Assembly (NCBI GenBank): GCA_021405315.1
Contig: QWIH01000002.1
Location: 1-64,000 of the forward strand
Source: Leptolyngbya sp. PLA1
GTDB lineage: Bacteria; Planctomycetota; Phycisphaerae; Phycisphaerales; UBA1924
DNA: 64,000 nucleotides
Direction of reading: 5' to 3'
Under the pieces are notes generated by a model. The model saw only the letters and a list, made by a program, of their open reading frames with translations, had not been told where the DNA came from and searched no databases. The translations under genes and the position numbers were made by a program. Each line of letters starts with the position of its first letter. Positions within the stretch are counted from its first letter, which is position 1. Of the stretch, positions 17,153 to 26,522 are shown in pieces.

Positions 17153-17872
17153 TCAGCGGCGGCGCCGACCCATGAATCCGAGGCTCAGGCCCGCGAGCGA
17201 GATCAGGCCGGGGGCGGGCACGAAATGGGCCGTTCCGGAGAAGGACCCTTCCGAGGCCCACTCCTCGACGGGGTAGGGCGCGGTGGCGCCGAGGCCGACG
17301 CCCGGGCCGCCGGCGGTCTGGAGGAAGGAGAGCGTGAACGCCGCGTCGTCGAGGCCGACGGACTGACCGGTGAAGAGCCCGTAGGCGGGGATGTCGGCGC
17401 CATGCCAGGTGTAGACGACCTGGCCGGTGATGTCGCCGGCCTGCACGCCCGCGGTGGAGCCCCAGGTTCCGGCGGAGCCGTCGGCGCTGAAGATCCCGCC
17501 GACGAACTGGGCGGTGAGCACCGGCGCCCCGAGGGCGTCATAGAAGCCGAATGACGCCGCGGGGCCCTGCGATCCCGCGAGCGTGTAGGTGTGGAGGAAC
17601 TGGCCGCCGCCGACGGGGATGCTGGCAACGTGCGTCAGCATGGCGTCGAACTGGAACTCAAGGTCGAAGGACAGCGCGGGCAGGGGCCCGTTGTCGTCAT
17701 CGATGAGCAGGGTCACCGGGTCGGAGCGGTCCTGGGCGTCACGCAGCACCTGGCCGAAGCCGGCGAACGTGAAGCTCGTGTGGTCCACGTCGGACGCGAA
17801 GCTGAACGTCGTGGCGTTGGCCGAACCCGCGGCCAACAGCAACCCGACGGCACTGAGCATTGCGATCTTCAT
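17153..17872 (-). CDS. PEP-CTERM-like sorted secreted protein (tandem paralogue A)
   Basis: A 239-aa secreted protein of unknown function. A signal peptide ends in S-A-N-A after about 20 residues, the mature part begins T-T-F-S-F-A-S-D, and the C-terminal tail is V-P-A-P-G-L, a hydrophobic helix and then four Arg. The body is a beta-rich domain with D-D-D-N-G-P-L-P-A-L-(S/T)-F and A-W/E-A-S-E-G-S-(F/Y)-S-G-T-A-H-F segments that are nearly identical in the upstream gene at 17933. The ATG at 17872 has GGGAG 8 nt upstream; a further-upstream Met in frame lacks a signal peptide. Only 60 nt separate the two paralogues, so they are probably one transcript. Confidence 0.85.
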   Translation of the reverse strand: MKIAMLSAVGLLLAAGSANATTFSFASDVDHTSFTFAGFGQVLRDAQDRSDPVTLLIDDDNGPLPALSFDLEFQFDAMLTHVASIPVGGGQFLHTYTLAGSQGPAASFGFYDALGAPVLTAQFVGGIFSADGSAGTWGSTAGVQAGDITGQVVYTWHGADIPAYGLFTGQSVGLDDAAFTLSFLQTAGGPGVGLGATAPYPVEEWASEGSFSGTAHFVPAPGLISLAGLSLGFMGRRRR

Positions 17873-17932
17873 CTCACGATCTCCCTTCACTCGGAGCAGA
17901 CGTACGCTCCGGTTCTCACTGGTTCAACGACT

Positions 17933-18649
17933 TCACCGACGCCGACGGGTCACGCACACGCTGGCCAGGCCCAGAAGAGCCGCGGCTCCGGGAGCCGGCA
18001 CGAAGTGCGCCGTGCCCGAGTACGAGCCCTCTGAGGCCCACGCCTGGTTCGGCATGGAGCCGTCACCCAGGGGCACGCCGGCCCCGCTGTCGCTGTTGAT
18101 GTTGGTGAAGGTGAACGCCGCGTCGTCGACACCCACGGAGCTCTGCCCCTGGTACAGGCCGTACGCGGGCATATCCGGCCCGAACCAGGTGTAGGTGACG
18201 CTCCCCGTCAGGTCGCTGGCGGAGAGGTTGGCCGCCGAGCCCCACGCGCCCTGCGGGCCGGCTGCGCGGAACGTCGCGGTGCTGAAGGTCGCCACGAGCA
18301 GGGGGCTTCCGTCCGCGTTGAAGAAGCCGAAGCCGGCCGGGCCCTCGGGCACCGCGGCGACGCCGTAGACGTGCAGGAAGTTCCCACCTCCCACGGGCAC
18401 GCTCGCGGCGTGGGCAAGCTGCATGCTCGCGCGGAACTCGACGTTGAACGTGAGCGCCGGGAGAGGCCCGTTGTCATCGTCCACAAGGAGCACCTGTGGG
18501 TTGGTCGGGCCGGCGGCGCTGATCAGCGCGCCCAGGCCGGCGAACGTCCAGTTCTGGTGGTTCGCATCGGACGCGAAGCTGAACGTCGTCGCGTTCGCGC
18601 CCGCCGCGGCGAGGGCCAACCCGCACGCTCCAAGGAGTACAGACTTCAT
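17933..18649 (-). CDS. PEP-CTERM-like sorted secreted protein (tandem paralogue B)
   Basis: The 238-aa paralogue of the gene at 17153, sharing architecture throughout: signal peptide ending G-A-N-A, mature start T-T-F-S-F-A-S-D, the D-D-D-N-G-P-L-P-A-L-T-F segment, a Y-T-W-x-G-x-D-(M/I)-P-A-Y-G-L stretch, and the tail V-P-A-P-G-A-A-A-L-L-G-L followed by Arg residues. Similarity by eye is roughly half of positions. The ATG at 18649 is preceded by GGGAG and a leader similar to that of paralogue A. The 5' leader carries two small hairpins. Function is unknown; the tail predicts cell-surface anchoring or release by a sorting peptidase. Confidence 0.85.
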   Translation of the reverse strand: MKSVLLGACGLALAAAGANATTFSFASDANHQNWTFAGLGALISAAGPTNPQVLLVDDDNGPLPALTFNVEFRASMQLAHAASVPVGGGNFLHVYGVAAVPEGPAGFGFFNADGSPLLVATFSTATFRAAGPQGAWGSAANLSASDLTGSVTYTWFGPDMPAYGLYQGQSSVGVDDAAFTFTNINSDSGAGVPLGDGSMPNQAWASEGSYSGTAHFVPAPGAAALLGLASVCVTRRRR

Positions 18650-18669
18650 CACGAATCTCCCTTCTTCAC

Positions 18670-18726
18670 GGGGTCTCCTGCCCCGACAGTCATCGAAACG
18701 ACACCACTTCCCGCCTCTCCAGGCGG
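18670..18726 (-). other. Two small hairpins in the 5' leader of the sorted-protein gene
   Basis: Read on the minus strand, a 6-bp stem with a GGAG-type loop (18711-18726) is followed by a 4-bp GGGG/CCCC stem with a 7-nt loop (18670-18684), which ends about 20 nt before the start codon. They could shape translation of the leader. Nothing identifies them as a known riboswitch. Confidence 0.35.
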
Positions 18727-18839
18727 TGAAGAACACCCACGCCATCACCACGAACCGCCCCGCTCCATGAGCGGGCTCGGTGCGCGGTCAGCGCGGCTGT
18801 TCATTGAGGGAGGTACATCACGCCGGCCGGTTTGCCAGC

Positions 18840-20714: not shown

Positions 20715-21455
20715 CTAGTGCCCGCAGCCGCACCCGCCGTGGGAGTGCTGGGGCTCGGTGATTCCCAGCTTGTCGAGCTTCTTGGTGAGGAACCGCCCGT
20801 GGTGCTCGAGGTGCCAGGTGGCGTAGGCGAGGATGCGTCTTACGGTCATGGGCCCGTTCTGCGGGTGCATGACGGGCCTCTCCCACGCCTCGGCGGTGAG
20901 CAGGAGGAGCCATGACGCGTGCCATTGCCTGAGCGTGTGGAGCACGGCGAGGTAGCCGCCGATGGCGTGCATGACGCGGGCGTGGTCGGCCTCCGGATCG
21001 TCGGCGTACTCCTTCGTCCCGTTGCCGTAGATGCCGGAGTCAACAAAGGAATCCTCATCCCAGGCCTCGACCACGGGGTTGGTCTCGCCGATGGCCCGGC
21101 GCATGCGCTGCACGAAAGCGAGCTCGGCGTCCACGCAGTGGCCCAGCAAGACGCGCACGGGCCAGAGGCCGACGCCGGCCTCAGGTAGGAAGGCGTCGTC
21201 GAGCTGGCGCTCGTCGAGCGAGAGGACGCGCCGGTCGATGACCTCGATGCCCCTCCTGTACCGCTGCACGAGTTGCACGGGGTCCAGGGCTTCCATCTGC
21301 TCGCGGGTCAGGTCCGCGGTCATGTGCTGAGCCTTGGTCTTGCAGCACTGGCTGGCGGGCTTGCCGGAGCAGCAGCCCCCGCCGGCGGCGGGCTCGTCGT
21401 GATGATCCTGATGGTCGTGGGAGCAGCAGCCGCCTTCGTGGTGCCCGTGTGTCAT
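20715..21455 (-). CDS. DinB-family protein with His/Cys-rich metal-binding ends
   Basis: A 246-aa DinB/YfiT-type four-helix protein with unusual ends. The core (about residues 45-235) has the family His positions in L-L-G-H-C-V-D-A-E and W-H-L-E-H-H-G-R, which bind one divalent metal in thiol-dependent transferases of this fold. The first 43 residues hold about nine His and six Cys, with C-C, H-H and C-C-S-G pairs, and the last ten are H-S-H-G-G-C-G-C-G-H. These ends are not part of the normal family and look like metal-binding tails. ATG at 21455 lacks a Shine-Dalgarno sequence; a TATAAT sits 5 nt before it. Activity unknown. Confidence 0.82.
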   Translation of the reverse strand: MTHGHHEGGCCSHDHQDHHDEPAAGGGCCSGKPASQCCKTKAQHMTADLTREQMEALDPVQLVQRYRRGIEVIDRRVLSLDERQLDDAFLPEAGVGLWPVRVLLGHCVDAELAFVQRMRRAIGETNPVVEAWDEDSFVDSGIYGNGTKEYADDPEADHARVMHAIGGYLAVLHTLRQWHASWLLLLTAEAWERPVMHPQNGPMTVRRILAYATWHLEHHGRFLTKKLDKLGITEPQHSHGGCGCGH

Positions 21456-21476: not shown

Positions 21477-22934
21477 TCAGGGCTCCTTCAGGTCGCCCGT
21501 CTGGCGATACCGCTCGCGGTACTTGTCGTAGAGGCGAGTGTGCTTGTTGGTGAGATCGATCAACCGGCCATCGATGAACGCCCACTCGATGGCGGTGGTC
21601 ACCTCCAGCGGGCTTCCGGTGGTCACGATGATCGTGGCGGACTTCCCGGTCTCGATGGAGCCGTATCTGTCCGCGATGCCGAGGATCTGGGCGGCGGTGA
21701 GCGTCAGACACCTCACCGCCTCGTCGTGGGGCAGGCCGTGGGCCACGGCCATGGCGGCTGCATAGGGCAGGTTCCGCTCGTGCGCCGTGTCGTCGTTGTT
21801 GGCGATGGTGAAGCGCAGCCCCGCCTCGTGCAGCACGCGGGGCAGGGTGTAGGGCTCGTCGTACGCCGCGTCCGCGCGCCGGGGCATCCGGTGCGTGCCC
21901 ATGAGGACGACGGGCACGTCGTGCTTCCTGAGGAGGTCCGCGCAACGCGGCGCGTCCTGCCCGCCGACGAGCACGCAGCGCATCCCACGCTCTGAGGCGA
22001 AGGTGACGGCGGCGTTGATCTGGTCCACGTCGTTGGCAGCGATGAACAGCGGAAGCGGCCCGCGGGGCTTCACAGCCGGGTCACCGTTCACGGCGCCGTC
22101 GGACACGACGGGCTGGAGGTCGGCGCCGAAGCCCGGGAACACGCTCCGCATGGCCTCCCACCGCAGGTCGGTCGGGTGGTTCGGGTCGCCCGCCTTGGCA
22201 CGGGCGTAGGCCTCTGCGGCGTCGAAGGCGTCCTTGATCGCACGCTGTCCCTGGCGGATGTCACGCATCTGGTCCTCGTCCGAGCGGTCCATCCACCACG
22301 CGCTGATCGGGCGCGTGTTGGGCCATCGCACGCTCAGACCGGCGGAGCCCAGCACCGTCATGTCGTCGTTGGTCCAGCCTTCGAGGCGGATGACCGACAC
22401 CTGCCCGGCGATCGTCCCGCCACGGGGATAGACCGCCGCCAGCAGCACGCCATTGGAACGTGTCACGGGGATGAGCGTGGAGTCGGGGTTGACGGCGCTG
22501 ACGGCCCGCACCTCGGGCGTCAGGTCGCCGGTCTCGCCGGTGTCGTTCGTCGCCACGACGGCTTGGATCTCGGTGAGGCCGAGTTGGGAGAAGGGCGCGA
22601 TGAGACCGGGCCACACGTGCCTCCCGGTGGCATCGATGGTGGTGGGGGGCGTGGCGAGCTTCACTCGGGCGAGGAACTGCGAGTAGTCGTCGGCACTCCC
22701 CACGCCGGTGATGACGCCATCGACGAACCACACCGCCCCGTTCTCGATGGCGGGGCCGGAGACGGGGTGGACCGTGGCCCCGACCACAGCCGTCAGCCCG
22801 GTCTGCGCCGGAGCCTTGATGCCCAGATCCTGCGCCGAAGCGGTATGGGCGGCCGCCAGGCCCGCGGCGACTCCCAGCGCCCGTGCGAACCGGGCGACCC
22901 CGTCAACCGAACGCCTTGATGCTGCGATGCTCAT
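21477..22934 (-). CDS. Secreted amidohydrolase-fold protein lacking the HxH metal motif
   Basis: A 485-aa exported protein: signal peptide with Arg-rich start and A-S-A-Q cleavage region near residue 35. The fold reads as amidohydrolase, with an N-terminal beta domain (G-A-T-V-H-P-V-S-G-P-A-I-E-N-G), a long middle, and the typical ending L-T-A-A-Q-I-L-G-I-A-D-R-Y-G-S-I-E-T-G-K-S-A. The P-G-(L/I)-I-D-x-H-x-H motif has become W-P-G-L-I-A-P-F-S-Q-L-G, so both metal-binding His residues are missing. It is likely a non-catalytic or altered member. Start at 22934 by the signal peptide. It follows the 1166-aa homologue at 23022 in the same direction, 87 nt apart, with a hairpin between. Confidence 0.82.
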   Translation of the reverse strand: MSIAASRRSVDGVARFARALGVAAGLAAAHTASAQDLGIKAPAQTGLTAVVGATVHPVSGPAIENGAVWFVDGVITGVGSADDYSQFLARVKLATPPTTIDATGRHVWPGLIAPFSQLGLTEIQAVVATNDTGETGDLTPEVRAVSAVNPDSTLIPVTRSNGVLLAAVYPRGGTIAGQVSVIRLEGWTNDDMTVLGSAGLSVRWPNTRPISAWWMDRSDEDQMRDIRQGQRAIKDAFDAAEAYARAKAGDPNHPTDLRWEAMRSVFPGFGADLQPVVSDGAVNGDPAVKPRGPLPLFIAANDVDQINAAVTFASERGMRCVLVGGQDAPRCADLLRKHDVPVVLMGTHRMPRRADAAYDEPYTLPRVLHEAGLRFTIANNDDTAHERNLPYAAAMAVAHGLPHDEAVRCLTLTAAQILGIADRYGSIETGKSATIIVTTGSPLEVTTAIEWAFIDGRLIDLTNKHTRLYDKYRERYRQTGDLKEP

Positions 22935-22950
22935 GCTGTGACTCGCTCTG

Positions 22951-22968
22951 AAAGGCCCGCAGAGGGCC
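22951..22968 (-). terminator. Short hairpin with T-run between the two amidohydrolase genes
   Basis: A 5-bp GGCCC/GGGCC stem (22954-22958 with 22964-22968) with a 5-nt loop, followed on the minus strand by TTT. Being short, it may only attenuate transcription from the upstream gene into the downstream one. Confidence 0.4.
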
Positions 22969-23021
22969 GGATTGGTGGGAGGATTGTGTGAGTGACGCAG
23001 AACCACGTGTACCGCGGGGGG

Positions 23022-26000
23022 CTACCACTCGTGTTCGAGCCCGCAGCCGCAGACGCCGGGCTCGTTGGGGGTCTTTCCGCGGAACTGGCGGTCTTCGAGC
23101 TGCCGCTGGAGTGCCCGCATCTCGTCCTCGCTGGGTGGCCTGCGGCGTCTGCCGCCGGGCCCCGGGGGGCCGCCGGTGCTCGGCCCGCCGTCGCGAGCCG
23201 AGGCGTTGTCGGGCTGAGGTCGCTTGGGCTCTGCCAGCAGTTTCTGGATCAGCCTCGCACGTTCCGAGGCGATCGTCTTGCGATGAGCCGCGTCCTGGCC
23301 CAGGGAGAAGAGCTCGCGCCCGTCCACGAAGGTCCGCTCGCAGCGGGTGAAGGCGCTCATGGGCGGGCCGGTCCACACCACGATGTCGGCGTCCATCCCT
23401 CGCTCCAGAGATCCCACGCGGGCGTCAATCATCAGCTGCTTCGCGGGGTTGAGCGTCACGAACTTCAGTGCTTCCGCCTCCGGCACGCGTCCATACTTCA
23501 CGGCCTTGCCGGCCTCGACATTGAGCCGTCGCGCGAGTTCGTCGCTGTCGCTATTGAAGCTGACGATGGCGCCGACATCGTGCATCAGCGGGAGCCCGCC
23601 CGGGATGGCGTCCTGCACTTCCATCTTGTACGCCCACCAGTCCGTGAAGCCGGAGCCGCCTCCGCTGTGGTCACGGACCTGGTCCGCGACCTTGTACCCC
23701 TCGAGGATGTGCTGGAACGTGCCGATCTTGAACCCGAACTCCTCGGAGACCTTGCAGAGCATCAGGATCTCGTCCTGCCTGTAGCTGTGGCAGTGGACGA
23801 GGCGCTCCCCGGCGAGGATCTCCGCGAGCGCATCAAGCTCGAGGTCGCGCCGGGGCGGGTTGCCGCCTTTTCGGGCCGCGGCGTACTCCCGTGCCGCGGT
23901 GAACCGGTCGCGGATGAGCATCTCCACGCCCATGCGGCTGGCGGGGTACCTCGCGCCGCCCCCCCCCGCGCCGCCCTGGTCGCGCGCGGGGCCGCTGTTC
24001 GCACGCCGGGGATTCTCGCCGAGCGCGAACTTGATGCCGGGCTTGGCGCCCTCGAAGTGCATCTGGTCCGGGTGCGCCACGCCCCAGCGGATCTTGTTCG
24101 TCTGCGACTGCCCCCCGATGGCGTTCGCCGAGCCGTGCAGGTTGTTCACCGCCGTCACGCCCCCCGCGAGCTGCCAGTACCAGTTGGTCGTGTCCGGGTT
24201 GGTCACGTCCTCGATGCGGCACTCCGCGGTCACCGCCTGTCCGCCCTCATTCACACCCTTGCTGATGCCGGTGTGGCTGTGGCAATCGATGATGCCGGGG
24301 GTGATGTGCTTGCCCTCGCAGTCGATGACCGCCATGCCGTCGGGCGGGCGGATGTCCGCCCCGGCCGCCACGATCTTGCCATCGCTGATGATGAGGGTCG
24401 CGTGCTCGATCACCCCCCGGTCGGTGTTGGTCCACAGCGTCGCGTTCACGAAGGCGAGGCTCGCCTGGTTGGGTAGGCTCTGGAGCCCGTACGGGCCGAA
24501 GGGTGTGACGAGCTGCTCGGGGATGTCCTTCAGCGACAGGTCGTCGTCGTCCTTCTTGGGTTCATCCCGGGTCTCGCGCCGGGCCTTCCACGCATGGGTG
24601 GAACCGTCCGGCTTCACGGACTCGCCCAGCAGCAGGTCGCCCTCCACGCGGGCGGAGTCCTTCCACACCCCCTCCTCCCCGAAGGGCTTGTTGTCGTATT
24701 CAAAGCTGACCGTGCCTCCCTCTACCTTCACCTTGTCGCCCCGCGCCGTCTTGTCGCCCACGCGCACGGTCACCGAATCCCGGCGGATGGTCACGAGCGG
24801 ATCGTCGTCCGGGTTGCCATCGTCCACGCCGTTGACTTCGAAGGCTCGCCAACGTCCGAGCACGGTGGCATCGGGCCGTCGCTCGGCGGACCACGCGAAT
24901 GCCTCGCCGGTGGCCCGGATCCCCTGCCCGGAGAGTCTCGCGGGCTTTCCGGCGTCGTCCCGCTCCACGGCGGCGGAGACAACGTACACGCCCTCGGTCC
25001 CGTCCAGGGGCTGGTGGTCGAAGCTGAACGAGGCGCGGCTGCCCTCCACCTGCACCCGGGTCGCCTTCACGCTCTTGTCGTTCATGTGGACGGTGATCGC
25101 GTTGTCCTCGTCGATCAGCAGACGCCGGTTCGCTTCGGGCGCGCCCGGCACGCTCACGGCCCACTCACCCTCCAGCTTGGTCGTGGGGCTGTAGAGCTCA
25201 TGGGGGCGACCGTCGACGTACACCGCGTGCAAGCGGGTCTTCTCGGCGAAGATGGGCCCGTCGGCAACGATGATGTTGGCGCGCTTGCCGGCCTCCACGG
25301 TGCCGACCTGGGAGGTGACTCCGAGGAACTCCGCGGGCGCGGTGGTGAGAGCGGCGAGCGCCTCATCCTCCGTCAGGCCGCACCTGATGGCCTTCCGAAG
25401 GTTCGCGGTGAACTGTGCGCGGTCTCGGAGCTTGGCGGTGGTGAGCGAGAACGGAACGCCGGCCCGCGCGAGTCGCCTGGGGTTGGTCGGGGCCTGCTCC
25501 CAGGTCATGAGGTCCCGGAGCTCCACGCTGTCCTGGCGTGCGGGCGTGGAGACGTCGGGCGCCCTTGGAAAGTTGAGCGGCACCACGATCCCGAGCCCAT
25601 CGGCCTTGATCGCGTCAAGCCGGCGGAACTCCAGCCCGCTGCCAAGGATGAGCGCCGGCCTGTTGAACTCGCGCGCGATCTTCGCGGCACGGAGGGCCTC
25701 CAGTTCGTCGCTGGTGTCAAAGAGCAGGACGGGTGTGCCCGGCCCGGAGCCCTCCGCCTGGCTCTGCCACAGTTCGTCGAGCGCGTTGCGGGGCTCGGCG
25801 AACCCCTCCGTCATGCGGCGGGCCTGCTGGTCCGCGGCGTCGCTGAGTGTCTGGCGAATGAGCGCGATCGCGCCCATCTGCGAGCCCGGGTAGCCGCCCT
25901 GGCTCCCCTCGAAGCTCACGCCCTGCAGCGCCCGCTCGCGGTACACGGGGGGCCGGTCGGAGCTGCGGTCATCGGGCGACTTCGCCAGGGAGACAACCGC

Positions 26001-26522
26001 CGTCCAGCCCTTGAAGACCCCGCCGCGGGGCGAGAGGCCCGCGGTCGCAAAGCCGAGCTTGCGGAGTGACTCGGAAGTCGCGGCGTCCAGCGAGCCGGCC
26101 TCACGCGCGTCTCGCTCCGGGGTCACGTTGGGGTTCCAGTGCCTGCCGGGCTTCTCGACGCCGGACGCGGGCACATCCACCTCGACCACCGGGTCCACGA
26201 ACGCCGCGTAGACATGCATGCCAGAGGCGTCGACCACGCGCGGGCCGATCGGCAGGCGCGGCGTCATGACCTTGCCCTCGCCTCCCATCGCGGGCTCCGC
26301 GGGCAGCACGCCCTGGATCACCCCGTCACGGATCACGACGCTCGCGTGCTCCAGCACCACCCCGGGCTTCACGTGCACCGTGCAATCCGAGAGCGCCACC
26401 CAAGTTGAATCCGCGCGTCTCGGACCGTTCGGAGGCGGGTTGAACGGCCCGGGGTTGCTGGGCTGCGCGAACGCGGCCAGAGGTGCGAGCGACAGTGCCA
26501 CAGCGTGGAGTATTCGGCGCAT
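23022..26522 (-). CDS. Secreted tandem-domain amidohydrolase
   Basis: A 1166-aa exported protein made of two amidohydrolase modules. After a signal peptide ending A-F-A-Q, the first module (to about residue 450) begins A-L-S-D-C-T-V-H-V-K-P-G and ends in L-T-T-A-P-A-E-F-L-G-V-T-S-Q-V-G-T-V-E-A-G-K; its HxH site is replaced by Y-A-A-F-V-D-P-V-V-E-V. About 200 residues of beta-rich linker follow. The second module, from residue 690 on, keeps I-T-P-G-I-I-D-C-H-S-H, a later Q-H-I-L-E-G and F-N-S-D-S-D-E, and ends L-E-R-G-M-D-A-D-I-V-V-W. So only the second module looks catalytic. Similar long proteins occur in planctomycetes and Bacteroidetes. ATG at 26522; GTG two codons up is possible. Confidence 0.85.
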   Translation of the reverse strand: MRRILHAVALSLAPLAAFAQPSNPGPFNPPPNGPRRADSTWVALSDCTVHVKPGVVLEHASVVIRDGVIQGVLPAEPAMGGEGKVMTPRLPIGPRVVDASGMHVYAAFVDPVVEVDVPASGVEKPGRHWNPNVTPERDAREAGSLDAATSESLRKLGFATAGLSPRGGVFKGWTAVVSLAKSPDDRSSDRPPVYRERALQGVSFEGSQGGYPGSQMGAIALIRQTLSDAADQQARRMTEGFAEPRNALDELWQSQAEGSGPGTPVLLFDTSDELEALRAAKIAREFNRPALILGSGLEFRRLDAIKADGLGIVVPLNFPRAPDVSTPARQDSVELRDLMTWEQAPTNPRRLARAGVPFSLTTAKLRDRAQFTANLRKAIRCGLTEDEALAALTTAPAEFLGVTSQVGTVEAGKRANIIVADGPIFAEKTRLHAVYVDGRPHELYSPTTKLEGEWAVSVPGAPEANRRLLIDEDNAITVHMNDKSVKATRVQVEGSRASFSFDHQPLDGTEGVYVVSAAVERDDAGKPARLSGQGIRATGEAFAWSAERRPDATVLGRWRAFEVNGVDDGNPDDDPLVTIRRDSVTVRVGDKTARGDKVKVEGGTVSFEYDNKPFGEEGVWKDSARVEGDLLLGESVKPDGSTHAWKARRETRDEPKKDDDDLSLKDIPEQLVTPFGPYGLQSLPNQASLAFVNATLWTNTDRGVIEHATLIISDGKIVAAGADIRPPDGMAVIDCEGKHITPGIIDCHSHTGISKGVNEGGQAVTAECRIEDVTNPDTTNWYWQLAGGVTAVNNLHGSANAIGGQSQTNKIRWGVAHPDQMHFEGAKPGIKFALGENPRRANSGPARDQGGAGGGGARYPASRMGVEMLIRDRFTAAREYAAARKGGNPPRRDLELDALAEILAGERLVHCHSYRQDEILMLCKVSEEFGFKIGTFQHILEGYKVADQVRDHSGGGSGFTDWWAYKMEVQDAIPGGLPLMHDVGAIVSFNSDSDELARRLNVEAGKAVKYGRVPEAEALKFVTLNPAKQLMIDARVGSLERGMDADIVVWTGPPMSAFTRCERTFVDGRELFSLGQDAAHRKTIASERARLIQKLLAEPKRPQPDNASARDGGPSTGGPPGPGGRRRRPPSEDEMRALQRQLEDRQFRGKTPNEPGVCGCGLEHEW

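Follow-up and report, generated by a model that had tools for sequence, protein, structure and literature searches.

This locus raises the question of what two amidohydrolase-like modules that have lost their metal ligands contribute when they are encoded beside a related module with a complete site. In the window, i.e. the whole stretch of 64,000 nucleotides analysed here, the larger protein (LP) contains two modules, M1 and M2, and the smaller one (SP) is a separate module. SP lies downstream of LP, both being on the minus strand. The features are as follows:

23022..26522, minus strand: LP gene (1166 aa), with export-like N-terminus, M1, beta-rich linker, M2 and C-tail
25173..26417, minus strand: M1, module 1 (LP residues 36-450), no metal site, all six ligands lost
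26181..26195, minus strand: strand-1 site of M1 (residues 110-114), DPVVE replacing DxHxH according to the profile alignment
24474..25172, minus strand: beta-rich linker (LP residues 451-683) containing an internal repeat (36% identity across 89 columns, E 6e-15)
23268..24473, minus strand: M2, module 2 (LP residues 684-1085), intact site with ligands kept, best solved match 3ooq
24273..24281, minus strand: strand-1 HSH of M2 (H748, H750), from the ligand columns
24030..24032, minus strand: K831 of M2, strand-4 lysine, from the ligand columns
23787..23789, minus strand: H912 of M2, strand 5, from the ligand columns
23709..23711, minus strand: H938 of M2, strand 6, from the ligand columns
23547..23549, minus strand: D992 of M2, strand 8, from the ligand columns
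21477..22934, minus strand: SP gene (485 aa, ATG start), separate module of amidohydrolase fold, six ligands lost
22584..22598, minus strand: strand-1 site of SP (residues 113-117), APFSQ replacing DxHxH according to the profile alignment

An alternative GTG start would give an SP of 509 aa. The N-terminus of both translations resembles an export signal (LP ...PLAAFAQ, SP ...HTASAQ). By a crude hydrophobicity test, such an N-terminus is present in 64 of 78 LP and 40 of 75 SP rows, where all SP rows except that of the window had been trimmed beforehand. The C-tail of LP, with VCGCGLEHEW as its last residues, is poorly ordered in the AlphaFold2 model. In the window this tail occupies 23022-23203 and has GVCGCGLEHEW at its end; many of the relatives listed also have a Cys close to the C-terminus, frequently within CGCG or GEC. 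A beta-rich domain is repeated between M1 and M2 (window 24573-25187), and the stretch leading from M1 to M2 varies from 129 to 428 aa across 78 relatives.

Pfam Amidohydro_1 matches both proteins (SP, E 1.5e-8; LP, E 8.7e-26, in three stretches). Among the NCBIfam equivalogs (imidazolonepropionase HutI, Xaa-Pro dipeptidase and others) the best hit scored 76.3 bits, far short of the cut-off of 500. By sequence, the best solved relative is 3ooq of Thermotoga maritima (M2, E 1.3e-46; SP, E 1.6e-23). The AlphaFold2 models (SP: pLDDT 89.2, pTM 0.86; LP: pLDDT 84.6, pTM 0.79 over 1166 aa) led to the same structure. The SP model aligned with 3ooq over 367 residues (Z 44.7, rmsd 2.7; next listed fold Z 25.4), and LP residues 688-1075 did so over 366 (Z 44.3, rmsd 2.1; next listed fold Z 23.1). 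M2 is thus of the 3ooq type by sequence and fold, with a (beta/alpha)8 barrel and a small beta domain, and the predicted structure of SP places it in the amidohydrolase superfamily by its fold. For M1, the secondary structure fits an amidohydrolase-like protein, and the fold search with the whole of LP listed M2 alone. The structural relatives after 3ooq include prolidase/carboxypeptidase types (3feq, 3mkv, 3mtw and 2qs8, Z about 22-25), and CRMPs/dihydropyrimidinase-related proteins are found among the PDB matches. We also considered the SP loop 124-133 as an interface, as it is modelled with low confidence, but its mean conservation (0.57) resembles that of the rest of SP and the idea was dropped.

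The original prediction had named the motifs WPGLIAPFS in SP, AAFVDPVV in M1 and CHSH in M2, all of which are found in the translations, and had read them as loss of HxH in the first two modules and its retention in the third. The ligand columns bear this out across the relatives. These columns were fixed by profile alignments between the three module families. As the alignments match the modules along most of their sequence (E 8.8e-41 for SP-M2, 5.3e-36 for M1-M2 and 9.5e-51 for SP-M1), the columns can be compared from one module to another. In the window, none of the six amidohydrolase metal ligands is present in SP or M1, and all six are present in M2. The latter has the set of the binuclear strand-4-lysine type (HxH, Lys in strand 4, His in strands 5 and 6, Asp in strand 8); in relatives, this lysine is carboxylated. 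Our comparison started from 83 loci, from which five without a full LP and eight without SP in the locus were dropped, leaving 78 and 75 rows, respectively (A1 and A2 have 71 and 69 rows, some being left out for brevity). H748, H750, K831, H912, H938 and D992 of M2 are each kept in 78 of 78 proteins. At the same six columns the ligand is retained in 6, 0, 1, 0, 0 and 9 of the 78 M1 rows and in 3, 1, 0, 0, 0 and 9 of the 75 SP rows, with a maximum of two of six ligands in any single row of either module. The SP of a Fuerstiella MAG (L040, 9325-10710) retains HSH at strand 1, with the other four ligands gone; this HSH is either a relic or a partial reversion.

M1 and SP might nevertheless be enzymes of another kind that have kept the barrel and catalyse without the classic binuclear site, by means of other residues, with one metal bound differently or with none. 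Such catalysis could explain the invariant or near-invariant residues of SP (E122, D131, E134, N149, D151, R159 and R387) and M1 (R223, Q224, R278, E285, E298 and W341), but these would equally fit a binding surface or an interface. In addition, none of the His positions reaches 85% conservation across the 78 M1 or 75 SP rows, and the position of the strand-8 Asp is variable in both. We therefore regard this alternative as unlikely, and a metal site rebuilt from other residues, which the original prediction had named as the finding that would speak against it, appears unsupported by the sequences.

Since every ligand has been lost, M1 and SP could also be seen as decaying duplicates without function that are simply carried along. 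Between the window and one relative (LP 90% identical), however, dN/dS is 0.109 for M1, 0.067 for M2 and 0.129 for SP. All three modules are under purifying selection and the loss of ligands is not chance drift; with values of 0.11-0.13, the dead modules are maintained by selection. Decay is further contradicted by clades that are conserved across phyla and by the co-occurrence of the modules even when unlinked (see below), and we consider it highly improbable.

In both trees that we calculated, M1, M2, SP and two sister groups (see below) each form one clade. Modules from fused and separate genes share the same three clades M1, M2 and SP (each with support of 100/100). M2 groups with the active sister group (98/97 and 100/99), and M1, SP and the inactive sister group stand apart from this pair and from one another. 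The trees were built on samples of the rows, with L165 omitted from the second and some array modules appearing as long branches in the first; as both were made without an outside group such as 3ooq, they are compatible with one loss as well as with several. Purifying selection, together with one clade per module across phyla, indicates that the ligands were lost long ago and that their absence has been maintained.

Scanning genome contigs identified at least 80 LP/SP loci, which belong to Planctomycetota, Bacteroidota, Ignavibacteria/Kapaibacteria and Verrucomicrobiota; Mucilaginibacter, Pedobacter, Chitinophaga and Pontibacter are among the bacteria carrying the unit. In 72 of the 80 listed loci, LP is followed by an SP gene of the same orientation, with gaps of approximately -60 to 170 bases. 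The remaining eight showed LP alone, and all eight genomes have an SP match on another contig. In two of them (L043 and L057) LP is located at a contig end, where L043 shows the start of SP, so that these pairs are rather broken than unlinked. In L047 and five Ignavibacteria/Kapaibacteria loci, SP looks truly unlinked from LP, and in G029 both genes are on one contig, about 128 kb apart. Since SP is sometimes unlinked (six genomes and G029), co-translation of LP and SP is not needed.

The original prediction had proposed to look for co-occurrence of both genes in other Phycisphaerae. LP and SP do co-occur: at thresholds set by us (LP, E<=1e-90; SP, E<=1e-40), 48 of 61 relatives have both, 12 have neither and one, a draft genome 81% complete (G031), has SP only. 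The unit is not confined to Phycisphaerae but spans several phyla. Among 149 genomes of the phylum, 45 gave an LP match with E<1e-80, nearly always via the M2 part, and each of these 45 also has an SP-family match (E<=1.4e-58). Sister-family proteins reach about 1e-67 in this search, which makes the weakest of the 45 SP matches less firm.

When open reading frames around the 80 loci were clustered, no neighbour besides LP and SP was common across phyla. We had considered conserved neighbours as a clue to the substrate; the clustering gave only lineage-specific synteny plus spurious antisense frames. Directly downstream of SP, the window encodes a DinB-family protein (bacillithiol-transferase-like, 20715-21455) with His/Cys-rich ends, which among the 80 loci is otherwise found only in that of a near relative (L037). 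Further along, two adjacent, similar and secreted-looking proteins (17153-18751) share a sorting-signal-like C-terminus (PAPG...hydrophobic...RRRR), which we take to be PEP-CTERM-like.

The search of the 149 genomes also revealed M2 and SP matches within single open frames in some genomes. We hand-picked 18 distant Planctomycetota loci, with fused M2/SP frames or neighbouring such loci, and found the module order M1-M2-SP in all 18, distributed over three gene layouts. M1-M2-SP is one chain in eight loci (L151, L152, L153, L155, L156, L157, L158 and L159; L157 and L158 are closely related, and the M1 match of L156 is partial). Nine loci have M1 followed by a fused M2-SP (L150, L154, L160, L161, L162, L163, L164, L166 and L167). 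Only one (L165) has the layout of the window, M1-M2 followed by SP. All six ligands are present in 15 of 15 M2 modules, at most one in 13 of 13 M1 and at most one in 15 of 15 SP modules (L158, L161 and L164 as well as M1 of L156 and L167 are not part of this count). In the window, the intact module has a fused and a separate dead partner, as proposed, but in other lineages the partner that is separate here, SP, is itself fused to M2. The partnership of LP and SP itself gained support from their co-occurrence, also when unlinked, from the natural fusions and from adjacent pairs, which lie on one strand in 72 of 72 cases.

Fused genes and shared occurrence demonstrate that the modules are linked functionally, but not that they touch. 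One could therefore imagine M1 and SP as substrate-binding or targeting modules, directed at a polymer, a peptide or the cell envelope, for which direct contact with M2 would not be required. In favour of this, the module as a whole is preserved in both, along with portions of the loop following strand 3 (GSAN-x2-GGQ in M2 and 3ooq). However, a constant order with moving gene boundaries, combined with strict co-occurrence, is more readily explained by a stoichiometric assembly than by a loosely associated helper, and we judge a role in binding or targeting of this kind to be quite improbable.

Because of the constant module order, the co-occurrence even of unlinked genes and the old, selected loss of the sites, we regard the three modules as one functional unit. 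According to our proposal, LP and SP probably constitute one exported pseudo-active-pseudo enzyme of three modules, in which M1 and SP are pseudoenzyme subunits of the M2 hydrolase. M2 would be a binuclear-metal hydrolase of the amidohydrolase superfamily, closest to the T. maritima protein 3ooq, and would hold the sole binuclear metal site of the assembly. M1 and SP would stand in for additional subunits of a hetero-oligomer, and their most likely contribution is to complete the substrate cleft or give it its shape, and to stabilise M2. The original prediction had suggested substrate binding or allosteric control of the active module as possible roles. We infer a physical 1:1:1 assembly of M1, M2 and SP, presumably located in the periplasm. 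An amide or a peptide may be the substrate, a guess by analogy with the prolidase- and carboxypeptidase-type PDB relatives. The occurrence of the dead-live-dead trio across phyla, in some cases within a single protein, suggests an undescribed machine with dead copies serving one live enzyme.

The genome of the window additionally encodes a sister pair on separate contigs, one intact (L117 on C13, with DTHSH) and one without HxH (L118 on C63). In relatives (L119-L124), the active and inactive sister genes are arranged in tandem. Furthermore, nine relatives from three families (L127, L128 and L140-L146) have eight tandem genes encoding nine amidohydrolase-fold modules in a fixed order, one gene of the array being a fused double module (for example L145, 4108-16971). 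Across the nine genomes, position 3 alone keeps HxH and the later His/Lys positions; an HPH slightly off the site occurs in a single module each of L127 and L144. As the sister pair and the nine-module arrays also show it, a live copy accompanied by several dead ones is a design that recurs in this group. A wider generalisation is possible but still doubtful: exported 3ooq-type amidohydrolases of Planctomycetota and related phyla may be hetero-assemblies of two, three or up to nine modules, with one live subunit enclosed by paralogous dead ones that form a chamber or binding track round the single active centre.

For annotation, this means that a match to 'amidohydrolase' says little, as the site is missing in two of three modules, and in eight of nine in the arrays. 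The LP/SP arrangement is old, extends over several phyla and is present in cultured bacteria, which makes the role of dead hydrolase subunits directly testable; nature itself supplies one-chain, two-chain and split versions.

Dead enzyme copies that aid a live one are known, mostly as single cases and many of them in signalling. 3ooq, whose entry title gives no function, shares the fold of M2 and SP, but is a single-module protein with HxH, in contrast to the three-module LP/SP unit, and we know of no dead partner for it. The prolidase and Xaa-Arg/Lys carboxypeptidase enzymes (3feq, 3mkv, 3mtw and 2qs8) likewise differ from the unit in having a single module. In the open-access literature we found no paper on 3ooq or TM0814 and none that describes dead and live amidohydrolases as pairs, fusions or multi-module arrangements. 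CRMPs/dihydropyrimidinase-related proteins have the amidohydrolase fold with metal ligands lost; they are eukaryotic and cytosolic, and we know of no operon in which they accompany an active paralogue. Amidohydrolases of P. gingivalis, which we considered as relatives, turned out to be unrelated. The metal-dependent bile salt hydrolases are secreted bacterial enzymes of the amidohydrolase superfamily (PMC13081902), but we rejected them as relatives, since they belong to another branch (Amidohydro_3/YtcJ) and the accessible part of that source describes no dead partner modules. The closest known working principle is that of ATCase-pDHO of Pseudomonas aeruginosa, in which the active partner is reported to depend on an inactive dihydroorotase chain for its activity and stability (PMC7053772), i.e. 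an inactive amidohydrolase-type chain supports an active protein. As described there, ATCase-pDHO is a physical complex, whereas the partnership of LP and SP is deduced indirectly, from fusions and co-occurrence. Moreover, the live partner in that complex, ATCase, comes from another superfamily, whereas the live and dead parts of LP/SP are paralogues, with two dead modules per live one.
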